A DNA stretch of 64,000 nucleotides, from contig NC_056758.1 of NCBI RefSeq assembly GCF_018687715.1, forward strand, positions 18,896,001 to 18,960,000, given 5' to 3'. Below, one piece after another: positions 5,518-60,462 of this stretch; positions within the stretch are counted from its first letter, which is position 1, and each line of letters opens with the position of its first letter. A program made the position numbers and the translations under genes. The stretch comes from Carya illinoinensis (Eukaryota > Streptophyta > Magnoliopsida > Fagales > Juglandaceae). Under the pieces are notes generated by a model. It was not told the DNA's origin and did not search any database. It saw only the letters and a program-made list of their open reading frames with translations.

Positions 5518-5562
5518 GAAGTGTGTGTTAATCACTTTTTGTTTCAATGTCCCTCACAAAAT

Positions 5563-5597
5563 TTTTATTTTTATTTATTTATTTATTTATTTATTTT
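5563..5597. repeat. TTTA microsatellite
   Basis: A run of about eight TTTA units lies between the LTR-like unit and the polypurine tract of the Athila-like element. Confidence 0.85.
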
Positions 5598-6583: not shown

Positions 6584-6699
6584 TTTCAAATCTCCAGCCA
6601 CTCTTGTCAGGTCACAGACGGATCCAACTATTTTTTTAACTTTCAAATCTCCAGCCACACTTGTCAGATCACGGACGGATCCAATTATTTTTTTCAACT
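6584..6699. repeat. 57-bp tandem duplication
   Basis: Two head-to-tail copies, 6584-6640 and 6641-6699, each begin TTTCAAATCTCCAGCCA and contain CGGATCCAA followed by a T-run. They differ at a few bases. The pair lies in the non-coding internal part of the Athila-like element. Confidence 0.85.
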
Positions 6700-6906
6700 A
6701 TCTACAGTGTTTACTAACGCACCGTTTTCTTCAGTCCACACCACCCAACTAGTGAGAGACATAATCCTCAATGAATTGAACGAAAGAAAACAAAGTGCAC
6801 AGAACTAAGCAAGCAAAACAAACAATCAACATGAATTATAAAATCAAAGCAAACGAACAAATAAAAACAAAGCAAGTAAAGAAAACTGTAAAGAAGGAAA
6901 AACAAA

Positions 6907-8310
6907 TCAAGACACTCCCCTGGGATTTACAATGTACGGCCCACTCCATCGGGATTTGAAAAATTTTTGAAACTGTTTTCTTTGCTCGGAGAGAAACCGA
7001 CGTTTATTTTGGGAGGACCATTCAGAAGGTATTCGCTCAGTCTCTTGAAATGGTAAAGAAGAATCTGCAAAACAATCAAAAAATTCAAAGTCACCTCCAT
7101 TGATATGATCAATTTTTTCATTAAGTAAAAATTCAGGTGTCTGAAAAATAGAATCATTATCAGAGAAAAGAGAATTTGAGCAAATAAACTTTGTTGGTGT
7201 CAAACTCTCCACAGCATTCAAATCACTTGTGTTATCCAAATGTGCTGGCATCTTGCAAGCGTTGAAAACGTTCAACTCAAGTGCCATGTTCCCAAAGGTA
7301 AGTTTCACAACTCCACTTCTGCAATTGATCAAAGCATTTGATGTAGCTAGAAATGGTCTTCCTAGGATGACAGGAGCTTGGTAAATAGTGGAGACCGGCT
7401 GCTGTATGTTAAGAACCACAAAATCTACTGGGTAGTAGAATTTGTTCACCTGGACCAACACGTCTTCTACAATACCCCTCGATACCTTAACTGATCTGTC
7501 TGCCAGCTGTAGCATGATGGAGGTCTTTTTCAGCTCACCCAATCCCTGAGGATAGGGTACCACAGGTTGGTATCCCTTACTAGTTTCGGCATTTGCACTC
7601 ACAGGCTTCTTCTGTTCTGGTCTCGCTACCTCTAGTTCTTTTTCAGCTTCATCCGTCTCTGCTGCATCTTTAGGCATAGGAGCAATTACCTCTGTGTCTA
7701 TGGTCATCTCAGGTCGGGGAACTTCCTTCCCACTTCTCAAAGTAAGAACAGTTTTTGCTGTCTCAACAACGTCTTCTGAGACATTTTGCACTTGATGTTG
7801 TTGTTGTCTGTATACTTGAGGATTAGGTTGAGGCTGTGCAGGAAATTTCCCTTTCTCTAGGGTGCTCAAGGTTGTGCTCATTTTATTAACAGTGCCAGGC
7901 AACTCATTTATGGCCTGAGTATTTTGATTATTTGTGGTGGCCTGAATGAATTGTTGAAGTGTAATGGTCATCTGTGCCATACTGTCATCTAGAGTCTTCT
8001 TGGCAGATGATGAAGGCTGAGGACTTTGTACAGCTACATGAGGCTGAAATCCAGGAGGAGCTACATAAGGATAGCTCTCAGGATTTTGATATGACGGATA
8101 CTGGTGCTGAGGAGCACCTTGATTAAATGGTTGCTGCTGAGGTAGTGGGGACCGACCAAGCTGATCATTTCTCCATGAGAAATTTGGGTGATTTCTCCAC
8201 CCCGGATTATATGTGTTGGAGAAAGGCTGATTCTGTGCTCGATTGACCCAGTTGGTTGATTGTATTGGCTCAGACCCACCTTCTTGAAATACTGGCATAA
8301 CATGATACAT
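6907..8310 (-). CDS. Athila-like gag-protease ORF with in-frame deletions
   Basis: The frame is open for about 467 codons from the ATG at 8310. It begins inside gag: a NxYNPGWRNHPNFSW motif near residues 35-50 is typical of Athila/Tat gag, so the normal N-terminal half is absent. Then come a Gln/Pro-rich linker, an LTLRSGK box, and a retropepsin flank with LQLADRSVK and ILGRPFLAT. The expected DLGASI-type catalytic box just before LQLADRS is missing: the chain jumps from PYPQ to GLGELKK. The C-terminus ends in KSRWSGPYIV, which is integrase C-terminal sequence, so RT, RNase H and most of IN are also deleted in frame. No proteolytic activity is expected. It is a structural-protein relic or a gag-only product of a non-autonomous family. 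Confidence 0.75.
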   Translation of the reverse strand: MYHVMPVFQEGGSEPIQSTNWVNRAQNQPFSNTYNPGWRNHPNFSWRNDQLGRSPLPQQQPFNQGAPQHQYPSYQNPESYPYVAPPGFQPHVAVQSPQPSSSAKKTLDDSMAQMTITLQQFIQATTNNQNTQAINELPGTVNKMSTTLSTLEKGKFPAQPQPNPQVYRQQQHQVQNVSEDVVETAKTVLTLRSGKEVPRPEMTIDTEVIAPMPKDAAETDEAEKELEVARPEQKKPVSANAETSKGYQPVVPYPQGLGELKKTSIMLQLADRSVKVSRGIVEDVLVQVNKFYYPVDFVVLNIQQPVSTIYQAPVILGRPFLATSNALINCRSGVVKLTFGNMALELNVFNACKMPAHLDNTSDLNAVESLTPTKFICSNSLFSDNDSIFQTPEFLLNEKIDHINGGDFEFFDCFADSSLPFQETERIPSEWSSQNKRRFLSEQRKQFQKFFKSRWSGPYIVNPRGVS

Positions 8311-8419
8311 CAATCTAATATGGTAGAGATGAGTGGTTGATGTAAATGAGATGAGTCACCAGAGATAATATGGTAGAGAAAAATAAAATAACAAGTTTAA
8401 ATTTAAGTTAAACAACTTA

Positions 8420-8437
8420 TCCCCGGCAACGGCGCCA
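8420..8437 (-). other. Primer-binding site, tRNA-Asp type
   Basis: The minus strand reads TGGCGCCGTTGCCGGGGA, complementary to the 3' end of plant tRNA-Asp. This primer is usual for Athila elements. It is preceded by GTCAAGTTTT, exactly as in the second Athila copy at 63522-63539. It fixes the element as minus strand, with its 5' LTR to the right. Confidence 0.85.
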
Positions 8438-8440
8438 AAA

Positions 8441-10900
8441 ACTTGACTCACTCAAAAATGAGTAGCACTAATGCTATCCCAAGTGCAGGAGGATGTCGTG
8501 TAATAATTAGGAATAAATTCCTAGATCGTCTCCTCAGGGAAAAGTTGCTTAAAATTAAACTTGTTGAAAAAATGTGAAAAACTTCACAAAGAGAAAATAA
8601 TATGATGGTATATGCAATGGATGAAATAGGGTACTAGTCATGGACTAGATTCATGTCTTTTGAATTTTGTTGGATTGGAATGTAAAGGACTTATAAATTA
8701 AACTCAGAAATTAATAAAACTAAATTAAGCATTAAACTAAATTAGAAAGTAATCGACAAAACATGAACGGAAAATTTAAAATGCCCAAAACTAAGACTCT
8801 AGAATTCATCTTTGTAATTAAATTACGAATTCTCAAAATAACATATAACAGTTGTAATTACTATTAAATGAAAACTTAAAGAAGTAAGAAAAATAAATAA
8901 CACGAAATAAGTAAACAGAAACTTAAAAGTATTCTATAAACTTTAAACTGAAGTTAAATAAAATAGGGAACGAAAAATCTAAACGAAAACGTCCTTTCAC
9001 GATTCGATTGAAATTCGAAACGAAAAGGAACAATTTCTTACGTATCACTCTTGAAAATTAATCTCTAAACCTTTAATAAAAACTCTATAACAATTCCTCT
9101 ACTCTTCACGTATGATATTCAGAAAAATCAAAAACAAAAACAAAAGCTTAAAATCAAATCTTTCTTGCAATAAATTAAAGTAACACAATTAATTTAGAAC
9201 TTCTAAAACAATTCCTTTTATTGTATAAAACAAACTAGTAACTTAATGGAAATTAAGGTATTACACTTAATGAAATACAATTCTAGAGCAAATATTAATA
9301 CACTTAATAAAAACTCTAAAACAACAAAGCATTGCAACAAAAAAAACTGCCGAACAAAAACTAAAGATTTCAGCCAAAAAAATGCCGAACATGAGTGGTA
9401 TTTCAGCCTTCTCTCCCTACTTGTCTCTTCCCCCACTTCTCTCTCAATGTGTCGTCCCTTAACTCCTCAACCGGTCTCAATTTATAGCAAAAAAAATTCA
9501 AGAGCCGAAACATCCACTTGCCTCTTGAAGAATCATTTAATTGGTTGTTTTCTCTAATCTTGCACCCACCGGTTGGTCCCTTTCAAATCATGCATTGAAT
9601 AATTAATCCCAGCCAACTACTCCACTAGCTGCCTCTTGAAGAATCAATCAATTTCCTCAATTCCGGTTCCACGTTCCCTTCTCTCAACAGCCGGTCTCAC
9701 TCCAGCTAGAAGACTCTCCTCCTTTCTTTCCTTTCTTAAACCAATCGGCACTTTCTTTCTCTACCAAACCGACCCCACACATCACTTCTCACACTCACTA
9801 TATTCATGCACTGCTTTCTTTCACTTTCAGCACAATTCTACTTCAGACCGACCCCACTCCTTTCACTCCTTCAATCTCGGTGCACACTCCTTCAAGCTCT
9901 ACCATCAACCCAAATTATTCTAGCCTTTCTTTTCTTTAATAAACCCAGCCGACCTCCTTTCCAATCTCCATCTCTGTTTCTTTTTCTTTTTTTTCTTTCT
10001 TTGATTTCTCCTCCTCTCTTCTTTATTTTCTCACCTTTCCGTAAATGTTGACAACATTCTTCCAGCCTTCTCTTTCATTTTTGTAAACTCCCTCAAGTCA
10101 GTCCGTTTGCTTTGTCCGTTCGGTGCCCTCTCTTTCTTATTTTTCTTTGGTTGTTGAAATGTGCCTCTCATCCCTTATTTTCCTTCATTTCGGCTTGTAT
10201 GGCTTGTATGTCTTCTTTTGCTTTTTTTTTTTTTTTTTTTTTTTTATTTCTTTTACTTTCCGAACCTCCAATGTCCTGCTCTCTCCTATTCTCTCATGAC
10301 TTTTCTCTCTTTTTGTTTGCTTAGGATCGACGAATTCAAACTCAGCTCACTTGGTTGAAAATTCTGCACCTACTCCTCTCTCCAATTCTCTCAACTCCCC
10401 ACCTATCCCTTTCACTAACTTTGTTGAAAATTCATACACACTCATCCACTCTCCTATCATTTTATTTCTTCTTTCAACTTTTGCACCACCAAAATTTCAA
10501 GCCTCCGTGAGTTTTGTTCAACCATGAGTCACATGCATCTTGAATGATCAAAGGGCATTGATTCTTCATTTTGTGTCTTCCTTTTCAGCTGCCAAACTTC
10601 CTCTAAATTAGTATGCATTTTTGATCATAAGTTCCAACCGGATCTCTTTTGAATTTTCTTTAAACTGAAAATAAGAAGAAAGAAATAACACTCAAAAATA
10701 AATTATAAAAAAAAACAGACTATATATGTGAGGAAATATTATCTCATTAAATCATAATTAAGCATAAACATGATATCAATCAATTAAAAATCACAACTCG
10801 TATTTATGCTTATTAATCAATTTTTTATCTAAAACCAATAATAGTGTCACGAAGAATTTAAAATATATTGGTTTTAAATAGCTAAAACATGCAATATTTC
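8441..10900 (-). repeat. 5' LTR region of the Athila-like element
   Basis: This block lies upstream of the primer-binding site in the element's own direction. Near the site it shares with 62200-63520 the TCCCTGAGGA-type box and GTCAAGTTTTTGGCG. Over 9400-10520 it is C/T-rich with long T-runs, giving meaningless Phe/Ser/Leu frames. I could not define the far end by a TG/CA pair or a target duplication, and other repeats may be included. Confidence 0.45.
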
Positions 10901-20846: not shown

Positions 20847-31997
<11,151 letters not shown>

Positions 31998-32991: not shown

Positions 32992-32996
32992 TATAT

Positions 32997-33426
32997 TGTT
33001 ATGGACCTCGGTAAATTACGAAGCAGGATTGTAAAAGAAGATGACAATTGCAAAGGAAATGGGTTGAATCTTGTTTACTGAAATTGATATGTCCATACAT
33101 TCATCACTCCAGGAATTCATTCGAGGCAATTCCTAAACCTCCCAAGGAAAGTTCCAGAGATTACAATTCAGAATAATCTTCCCTCTTTCTTTCCTCTCCT
33201 ATTTATATGAATATACAAAATCGATAACAACCCTCCAACAGACTCCATTGCTAACACTGCCATGCTACAGGACACGTGGGATAGACTAACAACCAGCAAG
33301 GATAAAACGCAAAGCTTCAATAAAAGTAAAACTCCACAGCATAGCGTCCCCATCCTTTTTGTTGTCTTCACCCCTTCATTCTTTGCTCATGGTTGACCTC
33401 GCTCATCACACCCCAAGCTCCTGACA
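32997..33426 (-). repeat. Left LTR of the inverted-LTR element
   Basis: On the minus strand it runs from TGTCAGGAGCTTGG to GGTCCATAACA and has an ATATAAATA box near 33201-33209. It is in the correct 3'-LTR position and direction for the internal ORF. The minus-strand 67-codon frame (33168-33371) is just LTR sequence. Confidence 0.88.
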
Positions 33427-35404
33427 TTCTCCCCCCGTTAAAGAATCTTGTCCTCAAGATTAAGAGCACTAATAGAAACTTTATTTCTACCATGGCTTGC
33501 GAATTAACATCTATAGTGTAGCAAGTCATGTCAACCATTTTCCCATACTCTGGATCATACCAGGTGTTGTAGCTGCACAAAAATCGTCTAGCAATCCCCA
33601 AAGCTAGCCTTAGGTAGACAAGCAAATGATTCCCAAATAAGAAAGAATTATACCCAAACTGCCAATAACCCTTGCTTGTCACAGGAACATATGTGAGCTT
33701 GCGCTTGTAATGATTGCGATCTACACCACCAAGGACAATTTCACCCTCCTCTTCCTCCTCTGCTTTACCGTTGAGCCGGAATGAAAACACTTGTTCTTTA
33801 ACAAGACCTTGTTCAACCATGTTGTACCACACAAGAGCAGAATTTCCAACTGAAATCTCTAGAAATCCGCTGTGTGCAATTTTCATCTTTGTGGTTTGAT
33901 AACATTTCATGTTCCGTTGTCTCACTACACTGTGAACAGGATACCAGAGCATGGATGTTAAGAAGTATTCCTCAGGAAATTTCCTTGGAGTCATGTCACG
34001 ACAATTCTTACATCTTTCTAGTTTGCAGGAGCAATGGGCATAATGCAAATCAATATTTGAATATGGAATAGCTCTGTCACAGTAACTACATATTCTGGTG
34101 GATTCATTGGACGCCATTTCCATGGCAATGCAAGGAAACAAAGCACGTGACGTCGTTGTGAGACTAATAAACAAATCATCTTTGAAGGAGAAATGGAAGC
34201 TCCTGCATTCTCTATCCCAAGAAAAGCTTCTTTCAGATGTCAATTCAAAGTGAACTACTTTGTAGAGTCCCTGAAAATGGCCTTTGCTATGCCCTCCAAA
34301 AAGGTGATTGTATGTTTGACTCTTTCCAAGAATTTCAGCAATCTCAGGATCATATTGCTGATGTAATAAAGCCTCTCCAGGAACCAACAAGGTACTTCGA
34401 CGACGACGTAAGGCACATTTATACGACTGGAATGCTGAACAATGATGCCAAACAAGCATTATACAATCTCCTAAATTTACGAGGACACCAGTTAATATCT
34501 CAATCACAGTCCAATTCTCGGTATCTTCCCCTTGCCTTGCAAACACCACAATAAGGACTGAATACGCCACTAACCCAATTGTCAAACACGGTAGGACACC
34601 ACTAATGCTCATGTTGACCTGGATTAGGTTCACAGTGGTTTTGTAGTACACGTTCATCTTTTCCAGTTGAAGATCAGACTCACCCTGGTGCCTCACTGTC
34701 AGATTTAAGTTGCGCTCCACAAACTCCATTTCCCAAACCTTGGCTGTGAAGGCTCGATGGAAAGTAGGCTTGCGATGTGAGAGTAGGCCACTCAAGGATG
34801 TGCGGATGCCGAAATTCATCATTTGGATGGAATATGCCTTGCCGAGGGGCTCCTTTTGGTCCAAAAAATTCTCAATGGTGAGAGGAGGCCACTCGAGGGC
34901 GTGGGTCTCCCATGGGGGATGCCATATGAGGCGTAGAAAAACATCACTGCATCTACGATCAATCAGCCTTTTAGAATCTTCGACGCTGTTGATGAGGTGC
35001 ATCTTGGAGATTAAGTGCTCCATTTTCATGAGATCAATATCAGACGGCGAGTTAATGAAGGCAAGCAAAACACTGAGAGGGGAATCTAAGAGTTGAGAAA
35101 ATAAGATGGGATTTCTAAGAACCGATGAAGTAGGTATTTCTTTGGGTGTAACTTCCGTGTAAACCGCCACACTCTCCTCCCCCGCTGCTGCTGTTTCTAC
35201 GCCATTCTCCGCGACTTCATCTTCATCCTTTGTTCCCTTTTCTTCATGCACTACCGATTGTATGTTTGAATCCGTAGCTGCCAAGTGTTCATCGTCCTCA
35301 TGGTCTTGCCACTCCACGAGAGATTCTTGCATGCTCTTGCAATTTTGCTTCATTCCGTTCACTATTTCTTTCATCTCCAGCACTAGATCCAAAATCTTTT
35401 CCAT
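33368..35404 (-). CDS. Chimeric 678-residue ORF captured between inverted LTRs
   Basis: Uninterrupted from ATG at 35404. Residues 1-40 are a Met/Glu/Lys-rich coiled-coil-like start that could be gag-derived; an acidic stretch follows to about 85. About 90-260 is unrecognised ([18 protein letters not shown] lies inside). About 265-315 is hydrophobic, with one or two possible membrane segments. About 436-475 holds [20 protein letters not shown] followed by a C-x2-C pair, like a plant TRAF-type zinc finger. About 512-582 reads [15 protein letters not shown]...[14 protein letters not shown]...[11 protein letters not shown], like a plant aspartic proteinase of the phytepsin type, without either catalytic Asp region. 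The last 25 or so residues come from the polypurine tract and LTR. It looks like host gene fragments fused in a retroelement. Function unknown; no peptidase activity expected. Confidence 0.7.
33427..33436 (-). other. Polypurine tract beside the left LTR
   Basis: The minus strand reads GGGGGGAGAA directly before the LTR start TGTCAGG, after GAGGACAAGATTCTTTAAC. This is the usual plus-strand priming site of a gypsy-type element. It also lies inside the long ORF. Confidence 0.8.
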
Positions 35405-35414: not shown

Positions 35415-35843
35415 TTCAGGAGCTTGGGGTGTGATGAGCGAGGTCAACCATGAGCAAAGAATGAAGGGGTGAAGACAACAAAAAGGATGGGGACGCTATG
35501 CTGTGGAGTTTTACTTTTATTGAAGCTTTGCGTTTTATCCTTGCTGGTTGTTAGTCTATCCCACGTGTCCTGTAGCACGGCAGTGTTAGCAATGGAGTCT
35601 GTTGGAGGGTTGTTATCGATTTTGTATATTCATATAAATAGGAGAGGAAAGAAAGAGGGAAGATTATTCTGAATTGTAATCTCTGGAACTTTCCTTGGGA
35701 GGTTTAGGAATTGCCTCGAATGAATTCCTGGAGTGATGAATGTATGGACATATCAATTTCAGTAAACAAGATTCAACCCATTTCCTTTGCAATTGTCGTC
35801 TTCTTTTACAATCCTGCTTCGTAATTTACCGAGGTCCATAACA
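35415..35843 (+). repeat. Right LTR, inverted relative to the left copy
   Basis: On the plus strand it runs from TTCAGGAGCTTGG to GGTCCATAACA, with CATATAAATAGG near 35631-35642 as a likely TATA region. The start is TTCAGG where the left copy has TGTCAGG. In the 67 codons of 35469-35672 it differs from the left copy by one residue. As oriented it would drive transcription away from the chimeric ORF. Confidence 0.88.
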
Positions 35844-35848
35844 TATAT

Positions 35849-40969: not shown

Positions 40970-43900
40970 TGATAGAGTGGAATGGGGCTTTCTTGACATT
41001 ATTATGGAAAAAAATGGGTTTTGAGAAGAAGTAGAGAAAGATGGTCATGTGTTGTGTGAAGTCTGTCTCCTACTCAATTTTAATAAATGGAACCCCAAAG
41101 GGACCTATCATGCCTTCAAGAGGATTAAGACAAGGGGATCTTCTATCCCATTATCTTTTTCTTTTATGCACTAAGAGTTTGGTTGCTTTGTTAAAACAAG
41201 TAGAGAAGAATAAGCTGGTGGAAGGCATCAAAATCTGTAGAGGCAATCCAAGGATCAACAACCTCCTGTTTGCAGATGACAACTTATTCTTTTGTAGGGC
41301 TTCTATGCAAACAAATGCAAAGATTCATCAACTCCTCAAGGTGTATGAACAAGCTTCAGGCCAAAGGGTGAACAGAGAAAAGACAGCTATGGTATTCAGT
41401 ACAAATGTTGATCCTCAATTGCAGTAGGATATCATGGCCTCTTGGGGAGTGCAACAGATTCAGCATTTTGAAAAGTATCTTGGACTTCCATCAATGGTAG
41501 GTAGATCTAAAAACAAGGCTTTATGGATATCAAGCATAAAATTTGGAAGAAATTACAAGGATGGAAGGAAAGGTTTACTATCTCAAGGTGGCAAGGAGGT
41601 CTTGATAAAAGGCAGTGTCTTTATCAATTCGTACATACTCGATGAGCTGCTTCAAACTGTCTGGGCGTTTATGCAGGGAATTGGAAAATATGATGGCTAA
41701 GTTTTGGTGGGGCCAAAGAAAGGAGGAGAATAAAATCAGATGGATGAGTTGGTCTAAGATGTGTGCAACAAAGTCTTATGGTGGTATGGGCTTTAAGGAC
41801 CTACAAAGTTTCAATGTGGCATTATTGGCTAAACAAGCTTGGCAAATTATGAATGAGATATCATCCCATCCTCAAAAAGTGTACAAATCAAGGTATTTTC
41901 CAAACTCTGATTCTTAGAATGCTCAATTGGGTCATGCACCTTAATATGCTTAGAAAGGGATTTGGGAATCAAAAGGCTTTTTGTTGAAAGGTTGTAAGTG
42001 ACGTGTAGGCAATGGAAAGTCTATAAATATTTGGATGTATTTCTGGTTGCCTAGTCAAAGACTTGTCTCTATGGTTCATGATTAGATTAGGATGCAAAGT
42101 TACCAAACAGTTGCACAGCTCATTGATGAAGACATTAACTGGTTGGATGTTGAGTTAGTAAAAAGCCTTATGGCCCCTTCAGAAGCTGCTGAAGTGCTGA
42201 GATTTCCACTTGGACCTACTAATAGAGAAGATCAGCTTATTTGGCACCATGAGAAGATAGATGTTTATATAGTGAAGAGTGCTTACAAGTTTCTTTTGTC
42301 TTTGAAGAATCACCGTACACAAGGGGAATGCTCTAATTCTCAGTCCCAACAGATTTTTTTGGAAGCAATTGTGGAAGTTGCCTATTCCTAACAGAGTTAG
42401 TTTTCTTGAAGAGCTTGTAAGCAAGGATTGCCTACGATGAGAAATTTGCTGGTGAGGAAGGTAGTAGCAGAGGATACATGTAAATTCTGTGAGGTTAGTG
42501 TGGAGGATACAGGTCAAGCACTTGTTTATTGTTCATCCATTTTATAATATTGGAAGTAAGCTTTCAACTACCTACATTTGGATGGTGATACTAAGGACTT
42601 TATGGAGCTAGCAATGAAGGTGAGAGAGGATGGGAATGCAGGGGATCTTGAGAAATTCTTTCTTATTGCTTGGTCTTTATGGCATAGGAGGAATCGGCTC
42701 CTATATGAGGGACACATTCAGCATCCACAACAAGCTGTAGACTATGCATTTTCAATTTTGAAGGCTTCACATGCTGTTCAAGTTGTTTGTCAGTAGAAGA
42801 CGATAGGGAGTTTTGGTTGGAGACCGCCTTTTGCAAGTGTTCTTAAACTTAATACAAATAGATCAATCTTCAATGAGCTAAGCAAGTCTAGAGTTGGAGA
42901 CATTTTGTGAGAAGAGAAAGGTTGTGTTATCATGGCAGCTTGCAGCAAAGAACTAGAGATTTCAAATCCAATGGAAGTTGAATTACTTGCCATTTTTAGA
43001 GGCCTCCAATTGTGTGTTCCTATGGGTATTAGTGATCTAATTTGAAGTCTGATTCCTTGTTGAGTGTTAATGCTATCTTAGCAGAAGGGGAGTCCATGTC
43101 TCCCTTAGGTAATCTAATTTTCTCTATCCAAGATCTTTTGAAATAGATGCCTAAGCTGCTGATTTAACATGTCAGTAGAGTTTTTAATGTAGCAGCTGAT
43201 GGTATGGCAAAATATGCATGGTATGTAAAGAGTTTAATAGTTTGATGGGATTCAATTCCTGAGTGTGTGTCCCAAATTGTTTGTCATGAAGCCAAGTTGT
43301 AATTCTTTATGATGATTATATTGCAATGAAGATGGTTATGTTGCTATAAAAAAAAAAAAAAAAAAAAAAAACTATATCCTAATTTATTCTCTAAAGTTTT
43401 CGTTGCTATAACAAAAATGTTCAAAATGATAGGATGAGGCAATCAAAGGCAGCTTCTCTACTTGGACATGCCATAGCAAAACATTTGACTTGCTAGCAAT
43501 CAAATAGGAGAAGCTTAATGGTAAAAAATAGGCACTTTCTTAAATCAACTTTGAATTATAACTTATACTTCAATCCCTGTTTGACAATTCAATAAATCCC
43601 TAGTTGACTTATACCAACTCTTTATGCTAAGACATAATTATTTTCTTTAATAATGAAAAAAGCATGAACACATACAATCTGCCCCCCTCTATACGAGGTT
43701 TTATTTCTCCTTTCTTTCTCTAATCGCAATCTTGGCTCTCTCTATTTGTCCTCTCAACTATCTCTCACTCTTCATTTCCAATCACTTGCCCCCATTATAG
43801 AGCATGATGAAAATTTTGATCATTTCCAACTAATAACACAAATGACTCTACAACGGCTATACGAGACTTACCTATTGAAGATCCTCTCCATATGGCAACT

Positions 43901-44943: not shown

Positions 44944-45248
44944 TGATAGATTTAGACTAAATACCTCTTTTGAGGTGCTTTACTTTCATTATATAGAAAC
45001 TAATTACAAAGATAGCTGCAAAGATAAGATTGAGGATTCAATTTGAATCTCAACAAATTACATCTTATCTTATCTAAACTAACTTTACCTTATCTCGTCT
45101 AAATATGTACAAGTCTAATTCAAATACGAGATAAGATTAGAAAACAAAACCTAATCTATTTGAAATTCTACTCTGATGCAACATAACAAATTAGGAAATC
45201 CAGTTGCCATGTTTGATAATAAAAGAAAACCCTAATTTTCCTTTGACA
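44944..45248 (-). repeat. 3' LTR of the nested copia element
   Basis: Plus-strand ends are TGATAGATTT and CCTTTGACA. Next to it on the inside, the minus strand reads TTTGAGGGAGGG, the polypurine tract (45249-45260). Confidence 0.9.
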
Positions 45249-45299
45249 CCCTCCCTCAAATTGATGCTAGTGAGTCAACTAGTAGCAATTTGCTAACTA

Positions 45300-47900
45300 G
45301 GTATTGACGTCGTCGTCGAGTTAAAGCTTTGGTGAAGATATCAACTACTTGGTGTTTAGTGGGCACATGAGGGAGAATGATAACTTTAGACTCATAGGCA
45401 TCTCGGATATAATGACAATCAATATTGATGTGCTTCGTAGGTTCATGGAAAACTAGGTTGGCTGCAATTTGAATGGCACTCGTATTATCACCATGAATAG
45501 GCGTGGGATGTGCCTATGCAAAGCCAAGTTCTGAAAGAATACCACGCAACCACATAAATTCAGAACATGCCTCAAACATTGCCCTATATTCAACCTCTAT
45601 AGATGACTTAGACACACAATCTTGCTTCTTACACTTCCAAGAGATGAGAGAATCCCCAAGGAAGACACACCATCCAGTAATTGAATGTCGAGAGTTTGAA
45701 CAACTGGCTCAATCTACATCACTATAAGAAACTAATTGAAGAGAAGAACCCTTAGGAAAAAACAGCCCACAATTAGGAGTCCCAAGTAGATAGTGAATAA
45801 TTCGACGAACAACTACAAAATGAAGATGTCGAGGAGAATCCATGAACTTACTGATAGTGTGGATGGCATAGGAAATATCGGGGCACGTGATGGTGAGATA
45901 AATCAAGCTACCAAACAACTTACTATATAAGGTAGGATCTGGGAGAAGTTAGCCTTTGTCTTTCCTATACTTAACATTCAGCTCCTGAGGAGTATCAACT
46001 GGAGTATTATCTTCCAATCTCCCTAACTGAATTAGGTCTTGAAGATACTTGTGTTGATTGAGAAATAAACCATGTGACTAAGACCTAACTTCCAACTCTA
46101 GAAAGTAGGTAAGATCCCCAAGATCCTTAATGTGAAGCACATTATAAAGACGTTGCTCAAGTTTTTGAATCAAAGGTCCATCCGAACCAAAGATGATAAT
46201 ATCATCTACATAAACCAATAAAAATACCATTCCAGCATCGCCCTTGTGCAAAAATAAGGAAGCATCGTACTTACTTTACTAAAAAGAAAACCCTAGTAAA
46301 GTATTGCGAAATTTCTCGAACCAGGCTCTAGGAGCTTGTTTAAGACCATACAAAGACCTCTTCAATTTGTAAACAATTGTAGGAAAGCAAACATGCATAC
46401 AAGATGGAAGTTTCATTTAGATATCTTCCTTTAGATTGCCATGCAAGAAAGCATTATTGACATCCATCTTACGTAATTGCCAAGATTTAGAAGCAGCAAG
46501 GGCAAGTAACATGCGAACAGTAGTCATCTTGGCAACCGAAGCAAAAGTCTCATCATAATCTACGCCATACTCTTGGTTATTCCCCAAAGCAACCAGTCTA
46601 GCTTTGTATCTTTCCAGTGAGCCATGTGAACGAAACTTTACGGAGTATACCCATTTACTACCAATTGGTTTGACCAAATGAGGACATTATACCACATCCC
46701 AAGTCTGATTAGCCGCAAATGCATCAAGTTCTGTCTGCATCGCTCACTGCAAGCACTCATGTTCCATAGCCTGTTTATAACAAGAAGAGATAGAAATGAA
46801 AGATAATGTAGCAATCATAGAAATGGGGGAAGAAAACCATACCGAGCTGGTAGGTGAGAGACACGGGTAGATTTCTTAGGAATAGGAGCAGTAGGAACTA
46901 TGGTAGATGTTGGATCAGGTGTCGGAGGAGGAGAATCTTGAGAAGCCATAGGAGACTCAGCCAAAGGGGTGCTATAACGTCGAGTGTAAACAAAACCTAG
47001 TTTAAACCAAGTGACTAGAGCAGAAGTGGTATCAGCAATGGGCATATGGGAGGGTCGGGCTCGGGCTCATTATGGAGAATCGAAAAACTAGGTGAGATAT
47101 GATCCACATGAGAGAGAAACAATTGTTGATTTAAAAAAAAAAACATTCCTAGAAATTTGAATTCTTCGTGCATTAGGATCATAACAAATAAATCTTTTTT
47201 GAGTGGAACTATATCTAAGAAAGGCACAATTAACAGATTGAGCAGTCAATTTATGTCTTTCATGTGGTGGAAGATGAACAAAACACATAAAATCAAAGGT
47301 ATCCAAATCAGAATAGCTAGGAGTGTGACCAAAAAGTATGAAATAGGGAGAAACATTATGTAAAACTGGTGTGGCAATATATTAATTAAATGGATAGCAC
47401 TAGCTAATGTTTCACACCAAAAGTGAGAAGGAACTGATGAGTCGATAAGAAAAGCCTGAAACTTATCAAGGAGATGATGAATCTTACTCTCAGCTACCCC
47501 ATTTTATTGTGGAGTAGATGCGCAAGAACGTTGAGAAAGGATAACTTTTTCTTAAAGAAAATTCTGAAATTCATGAGACATATATTCATCTCTTGAATTA
47601 GATCATAAGACCTTCATAAAGGAAGCAAATTGTGTCTAGATGAGTGTGAGAAAGGCCTTGAAAACATAAAATACTTCACTTTTAGTACAGAGGAAATAGA
47701 TCCAAGTAAATCTACTACAATAGTCAATAAAAGTAACAAAATACTTGTAGTGAGCATGTGATATAACAGGAGATATACCCCAAACATTGCTATGGAATAT
47801 ATTAAACACCCGAGTAGCATGAGAACCAGATTGTGGGAATGGTAACACTTTGCTTTTGGCAAGTTTGCAAGAGATACAATCAAATCTCTCAAAGGGGTCA
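45300..47900 (-). pseudogene. Copia pol: integrase, reverse transcriptase, RNase H
   Basis: Integrase core: 47848-47636 reads FPQSGSHATRVFN, then HYKYFVTFIDYCSRFTWIYF; HSDVW has become HSNVW. A following integrase segment is at 47306-47088 (HERHKLTAQSV). RT: 46677-46417 reads [20 protein letters not shown], then [19 protein letters not shown] and the [10 protein letters not shown] box. A later RT segment is at 45918-45709 (SLIYLTITCPDISYA). RNase H follows at about 45700-45300 (SIEVEYRAM). Stops separate the pieces. The INT-RT-RH order proves copia. Confidence 0.88.
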
Positions 47901-48132
47901 GAACAATAAACAGCTCCTTTTTACTATCAGAGGCCGCAACAGCCCCATCAACATGACCCCAGAGTTCTTTACCCTTGACAAGAAGCTAAAAGTAGAATGC
48001 ACAAAAAAAAAAAAAAATAGTTTTTACCTTTGAACCGAATGCACAAGGAATCAGATCTCTCAAATGCCATGAAAACAGACCAAGCATAGAATAGGAGAAA
48101 GAAAGCAAGAAGAAAAATTGAAATTTTGAGCA

Positions 48133-48145
48133 GGCTCTTATACCA
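48133..48145 (-). other. Primer-binding site, tRNA-Met type
   Basis: The minus strand reads TGGTATAAGAGCC directly after the LTR end CTGTCA. This is one base from the canonical copia site TGGTATCAGAGCC. Confidence 0.88.
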
Positions 48146-48450
48146 TGACAGATTTTGACCAAATACCTCTTCAGAGGTGCTTGCCTTTCATTATATAGAA
48201 AATAATTACAAAAATAATTACAAAGATAAGATTGAGGATTCAATTTGAATCTCAACAAACTACATCTTATCTTATCTAAACTAACCTTACATTATCTCAT
48301 CTAAATATGTACAAGTCTAATTCAAATACAAGATAAGATTAGAAAACAAATCCTTATCTATTTGAAATTTTGCTCTGGCGCAACACAACAAATTAGGAAA
48401 TCTAGCTACCATGCGTGATAATAAAAGAAAACCCTAGTTTTCCTTTGACA
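48146..48450 (-). repeat. 5' LTR of the nested copia element
   Basis: Plus-strand ends are TGACAGATTT and CCTTTGACA. It matches 44944-45248 along its full length with scattered base differences and small indels. Confidence 0.9.
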
Positions 48451-52530: not shown

Positions 52531-53167
52531 TGTTAGGGGGTATTTTCGTCAGGGTTGAAGCTCATAATACCGCCCCAGGCCCATTACTTCTCCAGGCCGC
52601 ACAGCGGCAAGCTCGAGCTCGAAGAGGTCCCCCCTAGATAGCCCTGGGGCAGGTCCCAGACCCATGCTAATCAGGCAGGCTCTAGACCTTTGCAAGTCAG
52701 AGGTAATCATCAACATTGAGATGGGATGTTGCAGAAGGACACGAGAAACCATGATAAGGGAAAATGGAAAGAGATAGCACTAGACAACTTTGCCAGAGAT
52801 GCACACCACATTAAATGACTAACACCAAGAAAACTACTCCGATTAAATGCTGCATAGCAGTGAAGACTCCGGGGAGAGGCGTCCCTCTGTCCTAGAACAC
52901 AGGGCATGGCCCACCTGACCTAAAAGGCCAAGTATAAAGGTCGTCGAAAACTACAAGGTAAGAGAGGTTGAAACCAAGTCTCTTGTGAATTATACTCCAT
53001 TGTTGTCTTCTTCTTTAAAGCATTTTGATCTCAATACTAACTTTGGCATCAAAGATTCCTCGAGCCACCGCAGGGCCACCCCTCTCTTGCCTCAGGATCT
53101 GACTCAAGGGAAGACCCAGTCCTGCTGAGCGACCCAGCTCAAGGGCATACAAAACATGACATTATAA
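52531..53167 (+). repeat. 5' LTR of the Tat-like element
   Basis: It starts TGTTAGGGGGTATTTTCG and ends near ACATGACATTATA, a decayed TTAACA terminus. A TATA-like GTATAAAGG lies near 52932. It aligns with 59840-60462 along its whole length with substitutions and small indels. Confidence 0.88.
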
Positions 53168-53169
53168 TT

Positions 53170-53186
53170 TGGCGCTGTCTATGGGA
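53170..53186 (+). other. Primer-binding site of the Tat-like element
   Basis: TGGCGCTGTCTATGGGA lies two to three bases after the LTR end and is close to the TGGCGCCGTCTGTGGGA type of site common in Tat elements. I cannot name the tRNA with certainty. Confidence 0.7.
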
Positions 53187-53627
53187 TCCTGACTAATCTT
53201 ACGGTTGAGTGTGTCCTCCGTATGCCTGCGAGGACCCATTCTTAGCTGGCATGGGAGCAGGACGAAGGCATGACAAGCAGCACAAAAGCAAGGTTGGCTG
53301 CTATGAGCAGCTCATTGGAAGGCCCTCGAGGTAAAGGACCTTCAGGAAGAAAAACAGACCCTTAAGGATACTTTCCGCGACTCGGTACACTAGGATGAGC
53401 ACAGTGTCAGCGAACACCATTCGAGAAAAGAGGAGAAAGGCGACAATGCCTAGGACGAAAGGGAACGTGTGTAGCAAGACCTGTGTAACCTTCAGGGAAA
53501 GTATTAGGAGGTATTGAGGAAGATGGGTAGCTCGTCCTAAGTAGACCAACTGTTGGTTAGCATGGGCCTGCCGTACAGCACGCAAGTGATGGCGGTCCCA
53601 TTGCCACCAAAGTTTCGAGTCCCACCC

Positions 53628-54150
53628 ATGGAAGCTTATGATGGGACCCGGGACCCGGTGAAGCACTTCGAGACCTTCAAGGCCCACATGACGTTGCACG
53701 GGTTCCCCGGAGAGGTAGCATCCAAGGCTTTCCCGCTGACCCTGAAGGGACCCACGAGAACGTGGTTTGGATCCTTGGCACTTGGATCCATCGAGAACTT
53801 TGATGAGCTAGCCTGCTTGTTCCTCACTCACTTTATGGCTAGCCAAAGGTGAAGACTCCCGGTCGCTTACCTCCTCACCATCATGCAGAAGGAAGATGAG
53901 AGCCTGAAGACTTACCTGGCCAGGTTCAACAAGGAGTGAATGATCGCGAAAGACCAAGATGAGAAGATCATGCTAGCAACGTTGCTCGGAGGGGTCTGGC
54001 CCGGATTGATGTTCATGGCTAAGCTGGCAAAAAAGACCCCTGTCACCCTTCATGCCCTAACTGAGCCCCGGCAGAAGGAGGGAGAAGATGGAACGTAAAC
54101 AGCAGGAGTCGAGAAAGGAGGAGCCCGCTGTAAGAGGCATGCAACAAAGG
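53628..54150 (+). pseudogene. Tat-like gag, interrupted
   Basis: MEAYDGTRDPVKHFETFK opens the capsid domain; AFPLTLKGPTRTWF follows. Stops occur at 53850-53852 and near 53938, but the family continues in frame-related pieces (IMQKEDESLKTYLARFNKE, then KIMLATLLGG). It matches the minus-strand frame at 17238-16984. No zinc knuckle was recognised downstream. Confidence 0.8.
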
Positions 54151-54584
54151 TTCGACCATTCGACATTCACTATCGCTTAGGAGGAGAAATGGCACACCTT
54201 AGGTGAACGTCGCTACTGCACCCACAATTGAACCACTTCTCACCACACCAGGGAGTGTCGATCACCTCCAACAAGCTATCGTCCACCGTAGTATCCACCC
54301 TCCTAGTAGAGAGAGCAACCATGGAGAGGGTGCTCCAAGGAGAGGGGTCCCACCAGGGAATACCAACAGAGGAGGCGGGAGAGCCCGAGAAGAGGAGACA
54401 CACAGCGCCAACCGCCCCCACGCTCTCAGCAGTTGTACCAGACGGTTCCCCCTGTAGGGGAAATTCGCACCATCGTGGGAGGCTTCATCAATGGAGGGGC
54501 AACCTCATCTGGGAGAAAGGCCCACACTAGAGAGGCCTGATACTGAGAAGTTTACTCATCCTCCTAATGACCCACGAAGCTCCC

Positions 54585-55025
54585 CCGAACTAAGCCCGCT
54601 TATGTAATCTCCTTTGAGGAAGCTGACGAGGAAGGGGTATTCTATCCACACGACGACACACTGGTGGTCACCATGTAGGTCACCAAATTCACAACCAAAA
54701 GACTCCTCATTGACAACAGCAGCTCAATGGACATCTTGTTCTGGGATGCATTCACCCTCATGGGAATAGACACAGCTCAACTCCAACCAGCCCCAATGTC
54801 GCTCAAAGGCTTTTCAGGAGAAATGATCTAGCCGGTGGGGACCATCGCCTTGTCAGTCTTGTAGGCAACCTGCCCTGCGTCACCTTTGTTATAGTCGAAT
54901 TTCTAGTAGTAAAGGCTTCTTGCTCTTACAACGCCATGATCGGCCGCCTGACACTCAACCAACTACGATCCATCACCTCCATCTACCACCTAAAAACCAA
55001 GTGTCATACGGTTTAAGGAATCAGT
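54585..55025 (+). pseudogene. Tat-like protease, interrupted
   Basis: VFYPHDDTLVVTM, a stop, then TKRLLIDNSSSMDILFWDAF is the retropepsin active-site region, with D-N-G changed to D-N-S. SYNAMIGRLTLNQLRSI further on is the conserved flap-side motif. Several TAG codons interrupt it. RT should follow but does not: the frame leads into a T-rich spacer at 55215-55300. Confidence 0.78.
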
Positions 55026-55339
55026 GATATCCAGGGAGAGCAGACCTCGGTGCGGGAATACTATATGCCGGAGCTAAAGTCCACCCGGGAGAGGCAACAC
55101 GCGGACATGCGCCAATTTTGAAGTCATAACAAGCTCCCATTAGGATGCAAGCTATCTCGACTAGGAGGGAGGAGGAGAGGCGTATGCCAAGAAGAAAGGA
55201 CAACCGGAGCCCTCCTCATTTTCTCACATTTTTATTTTTATTTTGTCTGCATACTTTGTAAATATGAACTTGTGGTAGATTAATGAAAATACTGGATCTC
55301 TTTCAGGAAACTTGCAAAAACTATAGATGACTAGGATTC

Positions 55340-56640
55340 TCAGTCAATGAAATAAGGCTCTCCTGAGGGAATGCCAAACCTCTCTCGAGGCAACGCACCT
55401 CGCACTGGAAAACTCCCATGCAGGAATGCTCCCCTGAGGGAATGACGAACCTCCCTTAAGGCAACGCACCTTGCGCGAGAAAGCTCCCCTGAGGGAATGC
55501 TCCCCAGAGGGAATGAACCAAGGCTCCCCTAAGGGAAGGAACAAACCTCCCCTAAGGGAAGGAAATACTCCTCTTGCAGGAAAGCTCCCAAGCGCAGGAA
55601 AGCTCCTCTGAAAGAATGCTCCCCTGAGAGGATGACGATCCTTCGCTGCGGGGAAAGCTCCCACAAGGGAATGCTCCCCTGAGGGAATGTTGAACATCCC
55701 CCGAGGAACCACCTCGTACAGGAAAGCTCCCCCGAGGGAATGAATAAAGGCTCCTCCGACGAACCACCTCAGGTGAGAAAACTCCCCCAAGGGAATGTCC
55801 CCCTGAGGGAATGTCAAACCTCTCCTAAGGAACCACCTCTGGTAGGAAAACTCCCCCAAGGAAATGAATGAAGGCTCCCCCAACGAACCACCTTGTGTGG
55901 GAAAGCTCCCTCGAGGGAATGACTGAAGGCACCCCCAAGGATCCACCAATAGCGGGAAAGCTCCCCCGAAGGAATGCACCCTTGAGGGAATGTCAAACCT
56001 TCCCCGAGGAGCCACCTCGTGTGGGAAAGCTCCCCTAAGGGAATGCTCTCCCGAGGGAATGTTGAACCTTTCCCGAGGAACCACCTCGCGCTGCAAAGCT
56101 CCCTTGAGGATCCACCTCATGTAGGAAAGCTCCCCCAAGGGAATGACAAACCTCCCCCGAGGAACCACCTCGCACGAGAAAGCCCCCATGAGGGAATGCT
56201 CCCCTGAGGGAATGACGAACCTCCCCCGAGGCCATGCACCTTGCGCGGAAAAGCTTCCCCGAGGGAATGCTCCCCTAAGAGAATGAACCAAAACTCCCCT
56301 GAGGAAAGGAACAAACCTCTCCCAAGGAAATACTCCTCGCGCAGGAAAGCTCCTGTCAAGGAAAGCTCCCCTGAAAGGATGATGATGCTCTCCTAAAAGG
56401 GAATGCTCCCATAAGGGAATGAACAAATGCTCCCTTGAGGGAAAGACAGGCCTCCCCCAAGGAAATCACCTCGTGCGGGAAAGCTCTTGTAAGGGAATGA
56501 ATGAAGGCTCCCCTGAGGGAAAGACAGGTCTCCCCTGAGGAAATCACCTAGAGTGGGAAAGCTCCCGTAAGGGAATGAATGAAGGCTCCCCAGGGGGGGA
56601 AAGCTTTCTGAGGGAATAAACATGCTCCTCCCTCTAGAGA
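55340..56640. repeat. Palindrome-rich tandem repeat array
   Basis: About 1.3 kb is built from words such as GAAAGCTCCCCTGAGGGAATG and CCTCCCCCGAGGAACCACCTCG, arranged in variable higher-order units of very roughly 65-110 bp. CTCCC-nnnn-GGGA and CCTC-nnnn-GAGG make each unit a near palindrome. The 360-codon minus-strand frame (55344-56426) with repeated GAFP and SFP words exists because the units lack stops; a second minus frame is also open in part. Nothing supports a protein. Confidence 0.9.
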
Positions 56641-58404
56641 CCAGTTAAGCCCGCAGAGGCCCTCAGGCCCCACCATGCTGAGTTGGCAAGATAGATCGGT
56701 GATGGTCAAGTTAAATTTACATATATACACCTGCGCCTTGACTTTTGTAGTAAACTTGGTCAAGTTTGGATTACGTGCCGGTCAGCCATCTATTGAAAAT
56801 ATGCCAAGTCTGCATGATAGCACATTGAGGGAATTTCCATCACAGCTTCAGTAATACAGCGTAATTCAAGCAAGATGGGGACCTTATGTACAAGATCTCA
56901 AGCTTGTTATGTTACAAATAGCCTCAGGAGTCGACAGGGGCAGAAGCTCAATTACGCTCAACGGGGTACCTGCAGGATAATCATCCACTCACTGCGACGT
57001 AAGTAAACGGACAGTATACCACTGCATGTGAAAGGCATGCATAATTGAAGGCATCGCAAGTAAAAGCATCAAAAATAAAGGCAACTGAACAAGAAGGCAT
57101 AAAGAAGATAACTTTATTCATCAACTGCCAAGACAATTACAACCAGGAGAATACTATACAACAGTGAGAAACTATGCAAAGAGATTCAAAAGATTAAGAA
57201 CACCTCGAAGGCCAGAGTCAGTCCTGGCGGGGTATGGTACCATCGGCAAAAAAAGGAATAGCGGCTCCTCAAACGACCCTAAAAAGGCACCATCCCATAA
57301 GTACCAAGGCAAGGAGGGAAAGCGGGAGATGAATCACCTCGAAGGGGGAGGGTGCAATCAGCCCGAGCTCTATGGACTCCTCAAAGAGCTCGAGTTGAAG
57401 GAGAGATCCTCCGTAGTCCCTCCCATCACAGACCCTTCTTCTACTCCTACTCCTCCCTGGGCCTGAGAGGAAGTGTCTGGGCCTGAGCAAGCCTAGGACA
57501 CCAAAAATCGCCTTCGCTAACCCAGCCAAGGAAGGAAGCCCTGCTCGTCCCAGATGTGGGGGCAACCTGGGATGCAAGGAAGAACCGTGAACTACACGAG
57601 GAGTTCTGAGGTAGGAAAATCCATTGAACGATTGTCCCACAAAGATGGGGACATGTCATCTTGTCAAAACATCTCCCAGTAATGAAGAACAACATATAAC
57701 TTTTGGAAGGGCATCCACAAGAGCCTCAAGGAGGCTGCCATGCTCATGTCTCCATAAGAATTCATCACAGGACTCGGCATCACAAAGCCAACCCTGAGCC
57801 AGGGTACCCATCAAGTTAAGAGCAACCAATTTTAGTGCAAGGAGGGAAAGAGAGAATGCATGATTTTAGAACGCTTAAGGAAGCAGGAAGGGAGATTTGG
57901 TGGGAAGCAACAAAGGGGCAGGGGCTATATATAGGTTGGGAATGACAATTCACATCCCGAGGTTCAGATTATATGCACGCTAAAAGGCTCCATCAGATCA
58001 TGCATGAATCTCGCAGATTTCATGGCACGTGTGGGGAAATGGCATCCACTCCATAAAGGCAAGGCAACCAACAGATGAGCAATGAATGACTGACTGTTTG
58101 ACATCCCTCCAAATCCACAGGAGAAACGCCAGCCATTAACTCAATCCCTAGGGAAAGCTAAAGGGAAAGTACAAAATTAAAGATAGGAGAGCAGAATTCA
58201 AAGCATCATCTCGGAAAGAAAAATGCTATAGGTAAATGGCAACCAAACAGTGTGAGAGGATAAGTCAGAGCGTGGGAAAAAGGTCAAGGCATAAAAGAAA
58301 GATACATGTCTTTATTAATTAATCCGTCCACAATTTACAAAAGGACCACGTAGCATTTACTACCAACGCGGCCCCAAGAAAGTAAACAACAACGAAAAGA
58401 AAGA
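56641..58404. other. Internal Tat sequence without recognised domain
   Basis: Frames at 57164-57466 (plus, basic) and 57269-57695 (minus, Ser/Pro-rich) overlap each other and show no domain I recognise. Neither is favoured. The segment may be untranslated sequence or the decayed 3' part of the antisense ORF region. Confidence 0.4.
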
Positions 58405-59534
58405 CTACGGCCACATAGGAGGATCAGGACCAGGAAGCTCTAGGCCCTTCTGCAGATCAAAAGAGCCCATCTCGACAGGGTTCCGCTCTTTTTTGGAGCT
58501 AACCGAGGAATCTTCAAACTCCCCTCCCCTTGTGCCAGCTACAGAAGTGCTAGTAGGGAGGAAGTCGCCAAGGTCATCATCTTCCGATAAGAACGCATCT
58601 GGGATCGCCTCCCGCCCCAGCTCGCCAGCATGATTAAGGGTGGCGGCATCAGGCTCAAGGATCCTAAAGTCTAGAGCTCGCAAATGCACCTCCAGCACCT
58701 TTGAACTACGCTGAGGGTTGAGGATGATGTAGTCATGCATCCTGTCCAAGCCCTCTAGGTACCCATGAGACCAAGCCTCTTCGCGGACGAAAAGAGCCTA
58801 CTTGACTACATGGCCACCTATTGCACCTACGATAGGTCACTGTGCAGATCCTGGATAACCACCTCCTGACCAGTAATCCTCTCACGGGCAACAACCAGGT
58901 TGGCCAAGGCCTTTTCCTCACGAACCCAGGCCATAGCCAACAAAACCCTACGGTCCTCCACAATGACCGATAGGTCGGAATGCTCCCCCTCCAGCATCTT
59001 GATCCGATGTAGGTGGAACTCTTGCAGGCCCCTCAACTCCTCATTCTCCATTTGGAGAAGATCTCATGATTCCTGGAGCCTACTCAGGGACTCCACTACG
59101 AACCGTAGACACCATACCTCATCCTCAGCGACGCGCCGAGCTAGCGCTCTTATTCCCTGCACACGATCCAATGTTAGACAACAGACTCAAGACCAAGAGA
59201 GTAGAAAAGGAATGCAGAATGCTAGAAGTACCTCAGAGGGAAAAAGGGAGACCCGCATTGCCAAGCCATCTGCACTCACGACCCCTTCACACTGCCCATG
59301 AATTTCCAGAGTAACTAAATCCAAAATGTGGTAAGTCAGTTTAAGAGATTGAAGAAAGGCCGGAGTGGCCCCAGAGTGCCAGTTATGACCCAAGAACCAG
59401 GGCTTTGAGGAGCCGGCCTCAAAACGGTGTACAGGGCCAGCCAGGTTGATGGATTTCTGGGAAGCCATCAAGGCTAGGAAAGCTAGATAAAACGAAGAAG
59501 GGTGAGGTTGCAGAAAAAGGTGGGCAGTGGGCAT
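58405..59534 (-). pseudogene. Antisense additional ORF of the Tat element, probably spliced
   Basis: Minus strand: exon 1 from ATG at 59468 (or 59534) to 59232 reads MASQKSINLAGP and ends at a GAG/GTACTT donor. A 75-bp intron (59231-59157) ends in GTGTGCAG. Exon 2 from 59156 continues in frame with GIRALARRVAEDEVW. One TGA interrupts it at about 59074-59072, a position that CGA to TGA would explain. A coiled-coil stretch follows (MENEELRGLQEF onward, to about 58827), then after frame damage RMHDYIILNPQRSSKVLEVH (58749-58405) with an acidic tail. Tat elements are known to carry additional ORFs, some antisense, between pol and the 3' LTR. Function unknown. Confidence 0.6.
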
Positions 59535-59839
59535 AGTGAAAGCACATAAGGCGAAAGAAGGGTAGCAATACGGAGAGAGGGGGAAGCGAATTTAAAGGCA
59601 CAGCCTCACAATCGTGAAAAAGAGGTAGCGTCTAACAGCCTAACTTGTAGGGTATGTGAAGTGACGAGAGCCGTATTAGCACCCCGATGGTATTATATGG
59701 GGAATCGACATCGGACACGTGGAACGGCCACTAACCAGTCCATGCAGCCACTTGGTGATAAGAAGAGTGGACAGTTGTGACAAACAAGTAACTATGGAAA
59801 TTCCCATCAAGCCAGCCTGATGAGAATTGGCGAGGTAAC

Positions 59840-60462
59840 TGTTAGGGGGTATTTTCGTCAGGACCTGAAGCCCATAATACAGCCCCAAGCCCATTACTTT
59901 GCCAGGCCCCATAAGCCGTGGGAATGCAAGCTTGAGCCCAGAGAGGTCCCTCCTTGGATAGCCTAGGGCAAGCTCCAGATCCGTGCAAGTCAGAGGTAAT
60001 CATCAATATTTAGATGGAACATTGCAGAAGGACGCGGGAAACCATGATAAGGGGAAAAGGGGAAGAGATGGCACCAAGCAACTCTGCCAAAGACACACGC
60101 CACATTAAATGACTGACACTAAGAAAATTGCACTACATTAAATGCAGCATGGCCGTGGAGACTCCAGGGAGAGTTGTCCCTCTACCCCAGAACACAGGGC
60201 ATGGCCCACCTAACCTAAAAGGCCAAGTATAAAGGTTGCCAAAAACTGCAAGATAAGATAGGTTGAACCCAAGTCTATTGTGAGTTATACTCCATTGTTG
60301 TCTTCTTCTTTAAAGCATTTTGATCTCAACACTAACTTTATGATCGGAGGTTCCCCGGGCCACCATAAAGCCACCCTTCTCTTGCCTCAGGATCTGACTT
60401 GAGTGAAGACCCGGTCCGACTGAGCGACCCGACCCAAGAGAGTATGAAACACGACGTTAACA
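59840..60462 (+). repeat. 3' LTR of the Tat-like element
   Basis: It starts TGTTAGGGGGTATTTTCG and ends CACGACGTTAACA, followed by the duplication CATCA. A TATA-like GTATAAAGG lies near 60227. A purine-rich GATGAGAATTGGCGAGG just upstream may be the polypurine tract. Confidence 0.9.

Follow-up and report, generated by a model that had tools for sequence, protein, structure and literature searches.

Pieces of several host genes within one long open frame of a low-copy, non-autonomous LTR retrotransposon family in pecan

The long frame and the insertion that holds it

The window, that is, the whole stretch of DNA analysed here, comprises 64,000 nucleotides of Carya illinoinensis (NC_056758.1, positions 18,896,001 to 18,960,000). 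On its minus strand, 33368..35404 forms a single uninterrupted frame of 678 codons, with the ATG at 35404 and the stop at 33368-33370. When this stretch was shuffled 500 times at the mononucleotide level, the longest run without a stop had a mean of 83 codons and a maximum of 176, so chance is excluded for a frame of this length and the open frame claimed by the original prediction is real. It is held by an insertion of 2.85 kb, which is flanked by 5-bp target duplications and has 428-nt terminal repeats in inverted orientation with 2 mismatches. The features are as follows (INT coordinates follow the coding strand; window position = 35416 - INT).

32992..32996, no strand: target-site duplication, left copy TATAT (identical to 35844-35848)
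32997..33426, minus: 3' LTR of the minus-strand element, TG to CA, 430 nt (arm 32997-33424; same LTR at other loci)
33427..33437, minus: polypurine tract adjoining the LTR, from the sequence
33368..35404, minus: 678-codon chimeric ORF (open in 5/8 copies)
33556..33664 (INT 1752 to ~1860), minus: MLO piece, outer border approximate (common to an element at C2:29668446, 83% DNA identity)
33655..33868 (INT 1548 to ~1757), minus: aspartic proteinase, two spliced exons (C9:10636274-10636582, 89%)
33864..34177 (INT 1239-1552), minus: XAF1-like TRAF-type zinc-finger gene, 5' UTR and coding sequence from three exons (C7:36438565-36440841)
34180..34472 (INT 944-1236), minus: RING-type gene, two spliced exons (C8:513590-513792, 513867-513959)
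34473..34639 (INT 777-943), minus: hydrophobic stretch, no donor
34641..34744 (INT 672-775), minus: beta-tubulin piece in donor frame (PDB tubulin beta 0.0088-0.011, weak)
34796..34906 (INT 510-620), minus: piece in donor frame from the gene for an MSI1/RBBP4-type histone-binding protein (PDB 9koh, 5.4e-6)
35266..35404, minus: coiled-coil-like start (MEKILD...), common to sister elements
35416..35843, plus: LTR, second copy, oriented opposite to the first, whose first two bases it lacks (2 mismatches/428)
35844..35848, no strand: target-site duplication, right copy TATAT (identical to 32992-32996)

The local chance of identical 5-mers is 0.0018 for the TATAT pair flanking the insertion. As had been predicted, the 3' part of the frame crosses the polypurine tract (33427..33437) and its stop lies inside the LTR. 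What had been overlooked is that another LTR, in inverted orientation, lies immediately upstream of the frame (35416-35843), and that the element belongs to a family. This inverted LTR stands where a 5' LTR and leader would normally be; other copies carry there a direct 5' LTR and a 62-nt leader, which is absent from the window copy. Both outer ends of the window insertion are the U5 terminus. No match to the element was found in a plasmid collection, as expected.

Other repeats were observed in the neighbourhood. A pair of 300-nt direct repeats at 44944-48445 (90% identical, 3202 nt apart) is probably another LTR element, and direct repeats 7295 nt apart at 52842-60436 (86% identical, G+C-rich interior) probably mark an older one. 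By eye, ORFs at 28697-29239 and 41041-41427 resemble LINE-type RNase H and reverse-transcriptase pieces, and a 140-codon plus-strand ORF at 31575-31997, ~1 kb from the insertion, resembles the end of a 2-alkenal reductase gene.

Host-gene pieces and their joins

The first 171 residues of the frame had no match in PDB up to E 10. An HSP70 origin of residues ~132-155 had no PDB, Pfam or DNA support and was rejected as a donor. The MSI1/RBBP4 piece matched C13:1928256 with 78% DNA identity over 111 nt, and its Pfam score (CAF1C_H4-bd, 0.029) was below the cut-off. Part of this piece recurs over 21 nt at INT 619-639 (19/21), as if the enzyme had gone back to the MSI1 template. The beta-tubulin piece, for which no Pfam match was found, is 79% identical over 104 nt to C10:36676299, which appears to be a tubulin locus from a reading of its translation. 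Both pieces (111 and 104 nt) are short and were not among the matches listed for the internal part.

The RING-type exons are 86% and 91% identical to a donor on C8 that we take to be RNF170-like, its reading frame likewise being presumed; with that frame, the first exon is in the donor frame and the second in another. Pfam gave no support for this piece, since the donor exon had no match and the element piece matched Lipase_3 only at chance level (0.13). The XAF1-like piece is 86-89% identical to its donor on C7, and its 5' UTR is read in frame into the ATG region of the donor. Znf_XAF1_N scored 0.0024 (17.7 bits) with the whole frame and 2.7e-5 (23.9 bits) with the 77-residue piece, against a cut-off of 27, and three PDB matches were obtained, the best being FLN29 at 0.21, which carry no weight here. 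The TRAF-type zinc-finger stretch that had been proposed is thus weaker in its profile score and is backed by the donor locus. The predicted aspartic-proteinase stretch without the catalytic Asp regions was confirmed: Pfam Asp matched residues 512-593 at 3.2e-18 (profile positions 112-191 of 315), procardosin B matched the stretch at 4.3e-25, and no D-T/S-G motif occurs anywhere in the 678-codon frame.

The MLO piece gave a weak profile match (Pfam Mlo, 0.0048, 15.8 bits; cut-off 24), and its match in the own genome is another chimeric element, not a parent gene; the part of that element (L036, C2:29668446) adjoining the MLO stretch gave Mlo at 1.6e-20 and H+-pyrophosphatase at 3e-10. L036 (C2:29.668M) thus carries H+-pyrophosphatase and MLO pieces; it also has a polypurine-tract-like stretch, read by eye, and its 3' part in common with the window element.

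DNA searches of the own genome and Pfam found no donor for 34473-34639, and two stretches of the frame in total are without one. As for the stretches that the original prediction had called unknown, MSI1/RBBP4, beta-tubulin, RING-type and MLO pieces were found there. Five segments match different parent genes of the same genome, at the C13, C10, C8, C7 and C9 loci. With MLO, at least six host-gene donors have support, which consists of short matches for two of them and for MLO comes by way of another element.

One GT-AG intron was examined in each of three donors (L030, L040 and L031) and was cleanly missing in the element; as read from the letters, the GT...AG ends can be positioned such that the two exons are joined in the element precisely as by splicing. 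The donors concerned are the RING-type, XAF1-like (one intron checked) and aspartic proteinase genes. At the XAF1/protease join, GGATT is common to both parents (5-nt microhomology). At the protease/MLO join, CAGTTTG is common (7 nt), the MLO side being judged from a related element (83%) and not from the true parent; CAG is the end of one exon and TTTG the start of the next. Because CAGTTTG straddles an exon border in the protease gene, the match needs a spliced template. Clean intron loss together with microhomologies of 5 and 7 nt points to capture from spliced mRNA by template switching. Exon shuffling by retrotransposon capture, as originally suggested, is supported in that introns are lost from three donors, as capture predicts. 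A Bs1-like feature, spliced pieces from several host genes inside one ORF, is also present, and the donor pieces match in sense orientation.

In the mechanism that we propose, minus-strand synthesis would have taken place in a particle supplied by a putative autonomous relative, where reverse transcriptase may have jumped among co-packaged spliced host mRNAs. The sense-orientation pieces would have been added over several rounds, and the MLO piece would come from a jump to another chimeric element. Chimeras keeping a long open frame might mainly have been the ones that spread.

Family copies, sister elements and the open frame

Within the assembly to which the window belongs (674 Mb, 17 contigs), a DNA search yielded at least 22 LTR matches and at least 45 matches to the internal part. 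Internal sequence is present in eight copies: the window copy, one on C15, three in an array on C6, one on C14, a second C6 copy (C6b) and a truncated copy on C12 without a 3' end. Apart from the window copy, direct LTRs are found in every copy with both ends preserved, and they run from TG to CA in C15, the C6 array, C14 and C6b, whereas those of the window copy are inverted. The primer-binding-like TGGTATCA of the 62-nt leader, presumably a tRNA-Met primer-binding site, follows the 5' LTR in C15, C6, C14, C12 and C6b, and a polypurine tract is also present. Perfect 5-bp target duplications were found at all six insertions tested at their true ends (window, C15, C6 array, C14 and solo LTRs on C3 and C2); in C6b, read by eye, the element ends ...CTCCTAACA and is followed by CAATT, which equals the left 5 bases. 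Because the other end-keeping copies have direct LTRs, the window insertion belongs to a low-copy non-autonomous LTR retrotransposon family, and in this copy one LTR has been flipped.

The C6 array (L010, G000:C6:22741800-22751799, at 1084-9391) is a tandem array of five LTRs and three internal parts. A single pair of 5-bp duplications (TAGTT) surrounds the whole array, and its LTR-LTR join carries a short primer-binding remnant. It resembles tandemly arrayed TRIMs or template-switching complexes.

The two LTRs of a copy differ at 0/428 positions in C15, 2 in the window copy, 1 in the outer pair of the C6 array and 12 in C14, and at 17/414 positions plus 14 gap positions in C6b. The frame is open (678 or 693 codons) in five of the eight copies, one of which (C15) has identical LTRs, and is broken in C14, C6b and the truncated C12 copy.

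Parts of INT 1 to ~700 are common to sister loci on C3, C6, C11, C15, C10, C7 and C4, among others. The leader and MEKILD start occur at C10:12.036M (L032), C7:10.633M (L033) and C4:19.931M (L034), where they are 94-96% alike and are followed by other genes. L033 contains poly(A) polymerase (2.9e-11) and cyclin (1.4e-6) pieces, and its frame of 547 codons with one stop is ended by the locus edge. A cyclin piece was also seen in L032, and one stretch of L033 resembles L036, the element with the pyrophosphatase piece, at 84%. Over the first 36 codons, dN/dS was 0.53-1.10 against L032, L033 and L034, and 0.30-0.53 against L039, L041 and L042, two of which have a stop there (the frame-shifted row L044 was left out).

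Protein searches, one of them with residues 1-430, scored only the 7997 candidates with the most words in common. Thirty-one proteins were found, 30 with aspartic-proteinase domains and the other being P0001, a pecan protein of 542 aa that matches residues 1-230 of the frame (44%) and then continues into different host pieces: HSP90 (7e-8, above the cut-off), tubulin (6.1e-4) and WD40 (best 3.8e-5), the last two below their cut-offs. Among these 31 proteins, no single gene with the same domain order was found. With residues 1-430, P0001 was the only protein found among the 7997 candidates scored, and P0001 residues 1-290 found only P0001 itself. In the genome of the window, P0001 had 56 matches, including a broken relative at C6:14582233; by our own count, 14 further places outside the family and this relative have a match that begins within the first 70 residues of P0001, some of them weakly (E up to 5.7e-5). 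Separate matches exist for its HSP90 part, for example C8:34288248 (88%), and for its WD40 exons (C8:5484053-5485557, 81-94%), and at C5:48986172 and C8:36320808 an N-terminal match lies beside an HSP90 match.

By our own reading, and with the RING donor frame presumed, six of seven fragments lie in the donor frame, the RING second exon being the exception. If frames were random, at least six of seven would be in frame with a probability of ~0.007 (binomial, 1/3), a value that is biased because the long frame was the selection criterion. Compared with their donors, five segments show 111 substitutions and no stop; four are gap-free, and the zinc-finger segment has gaps of 1 and 2 letters, which are put down to an exon border. 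Multiplied over the segments, the simulated chances of no stop are ~0.012 if all divergence lies on the element and ~0.09 if half does. Compared with the window copy, the broken copies have 5 indels for 175 substitutions; at that rate, about three indels would be expected in the five segments.

Against the donors, dN/dS was 0.83 for MSI1, 0.53 for tubulin, 1.14 for RING, 0.40 for the protease and 0.40 for the zinc finger, so that constraint at the protein level between donor and element is weak or absent. Among open copies it was 0.26-0.79 in the seven of ten pairs where it is defined, with few changes, and three within-array pairs have zero synonymous changes. The original prediction had left the choice between recent birth and selection, or the two together. 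LTR differences of 0-2/428 in the window, C15 and outer C6 pairs support recent copying, and selection on the protein sequence is not shown by values of 0.40-1.14. Both ranges of dN/dS, and the fact that three of eight copies are broken, would also fit a long frame that has come through a recent burst by chance, the ORF being under no selection. Five segments that are stop-free over 111 substitutions, four of them without a gap, and their low simulated probability speak against such survival, as do the long frames in sister chimeras (542 aa in P0001; 547 codons with one stop in L033). We regard it as a serious possibility that falls somewhat short of an even chance.

Our conclusion, of moderate strength, is that the frame has been kept open while the protein sequence was only weakly constrained. 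The predicted product is probably a translated but structureless passenger, and the common N-terminal part may be its sole functional part. A more tentative suggestion, which we do not favor strongly, is that the lineage keeps an open frame while in-frame host exons keep replacing its content, translation itself and not the product being selected. If so, translation may shield the RNA from nonsense decay or route it to particles, the lineage would steadily give rise to proteins fused from several genes, and inverted-LTR insertions would be an occasional by-product of fold-back reverse transcription.

The inverted LTR and comparison with known systems

Each inverted arm differs from a C15 LTR at 1/428 positions, and the arms differ from each other at 2. 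The microhomology at the join with the inverted LTR (the fold-back junction) is 1-2 nt at most. The nascent minus strand, begun normally at the 3' LTR, would have left its template 62 nt short of the 5' LTR and then most likely folded back, copying the complement of its own LTR. The product would be a cDNA with identical U5 ends outward, which integrase could have inserted normally. After such a course, the arms should be nearly identical, the U5 end exact, the leader lost and the target duplication normal, and all four were seen. Given these observations, a fold-back copying slip during reverse transcription is the probable origin of the inverted LTR. In the open-licence literature searched, we found no report of inverted-LTR insertions by self-priming or template switching, nor of gene capture of this kind in Carya.

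The inverted LTR could also have arisen after integration, by local inversion or ectopic gene conversion. It is unique to the window copy among the copies seen and there is little microhomology at the join, as would be expected in that case. However, the outer end is exactly the U5 terminus beside a matching 5-bp duplication, and the 62-nt leader is missing. The breakpoint of a later inversion would have had to fall exactly at the LTR end, and an event of this type is unlikely.

Pack-MULEs have TIRs with longer target duplications (about 9-11 bp), and DIRS-like elements have inverted repeats and no target duplication. Long near-identical inverted repeats around gene fragments might suggest that the 428-nt repeats are true TIRs of a Pack-MULE or other TIR DNA transposon with captured genomic fragments. 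This is contradicted by the other copies, which carry the repeats in direct orientation together with the leader; the 5-bp duplications, the polypurine tract beside the LTR and the missing donor introns likewise argue against it. The 5-bp duplications and the direct repeats of the other copies do not fit a Pack-MULE, and any TIR transposon is very improbable. A DIRS-like element was rejected on the basis of the TATAT duplication and the direct LTRs of other copies. Contradicted as well, and least probable of all, is an ordinary single host gene with divergent domain order, even though the frame is continuous and the annotated proteins of pecan include a relative. The frame is enclosed by LTR ends and target duplications, only its first third is shared with P0001, and each donor sits at a locus of its own, which in three cases has introns. 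Taken as a whole, we are highly confident in a low-copy non-autonomous LTR family in which host mRNAs supplied the pieces of the single ORF by template switching, the inverted LTR of the window copy being most likely a product of fold-back.

Among plant LTR elements, the textbook example of exon shuffling is Bs1 of maize, a transducing LTR retroelement. A 2026 review (PMC13317346) gives it three donor genes. The window element is like Bs1 in being an LTR element with one ORF of several host-gene pieces; unlike Bs1, it has at least six donors, sisters with other sets and one inverted-LTR copy. The original characterization as Bs1-like with more donors therefore agrees with the count of at least six against three (PMC13317346).

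According to passages of a study on TRIMs (PMC4717578), GmaRetroS15 of soybean is a small non-autonomous TRIM with exon-only pieces of three genes and 5-bp duplications; tandem TRIM LTR arrays are known, and capturing TRIMs are 1.2-1.4 kb long. Both these elements and ours are non-autonomous, with exon-only capture and 5-bp duplications, whereas the window element is larger (2.9 kb) and has more donors and a continuous frame of 678-693 codons. Maize LTR retrotransposons with gene fragments likewise hold host fragments within an LTR element, and the relevant part of that survey (PMC2774510) gives no multi-gene case among 425. The C6 array resembles the Triticeae LTR complexes, in which abnormal template switching gave a complex insertion between 5-bp duplications (excerpts of PMC1950507); unlike the window copy, these appear to be without LTR inversion, as the stem 'invert' does not occur in the text of that source.

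Because the family is young and has lost introns cleanly, and because the joins between pieces from six or more donors can still be read, it would give a direct record of serial template switching, and sisters with other in-frame contents make the need for an open frame and the founding of new genes testable. Elements of this kind are already known; what is new here is the number of donors, the family of differently filled sisters and the copy with an inverted LTR.
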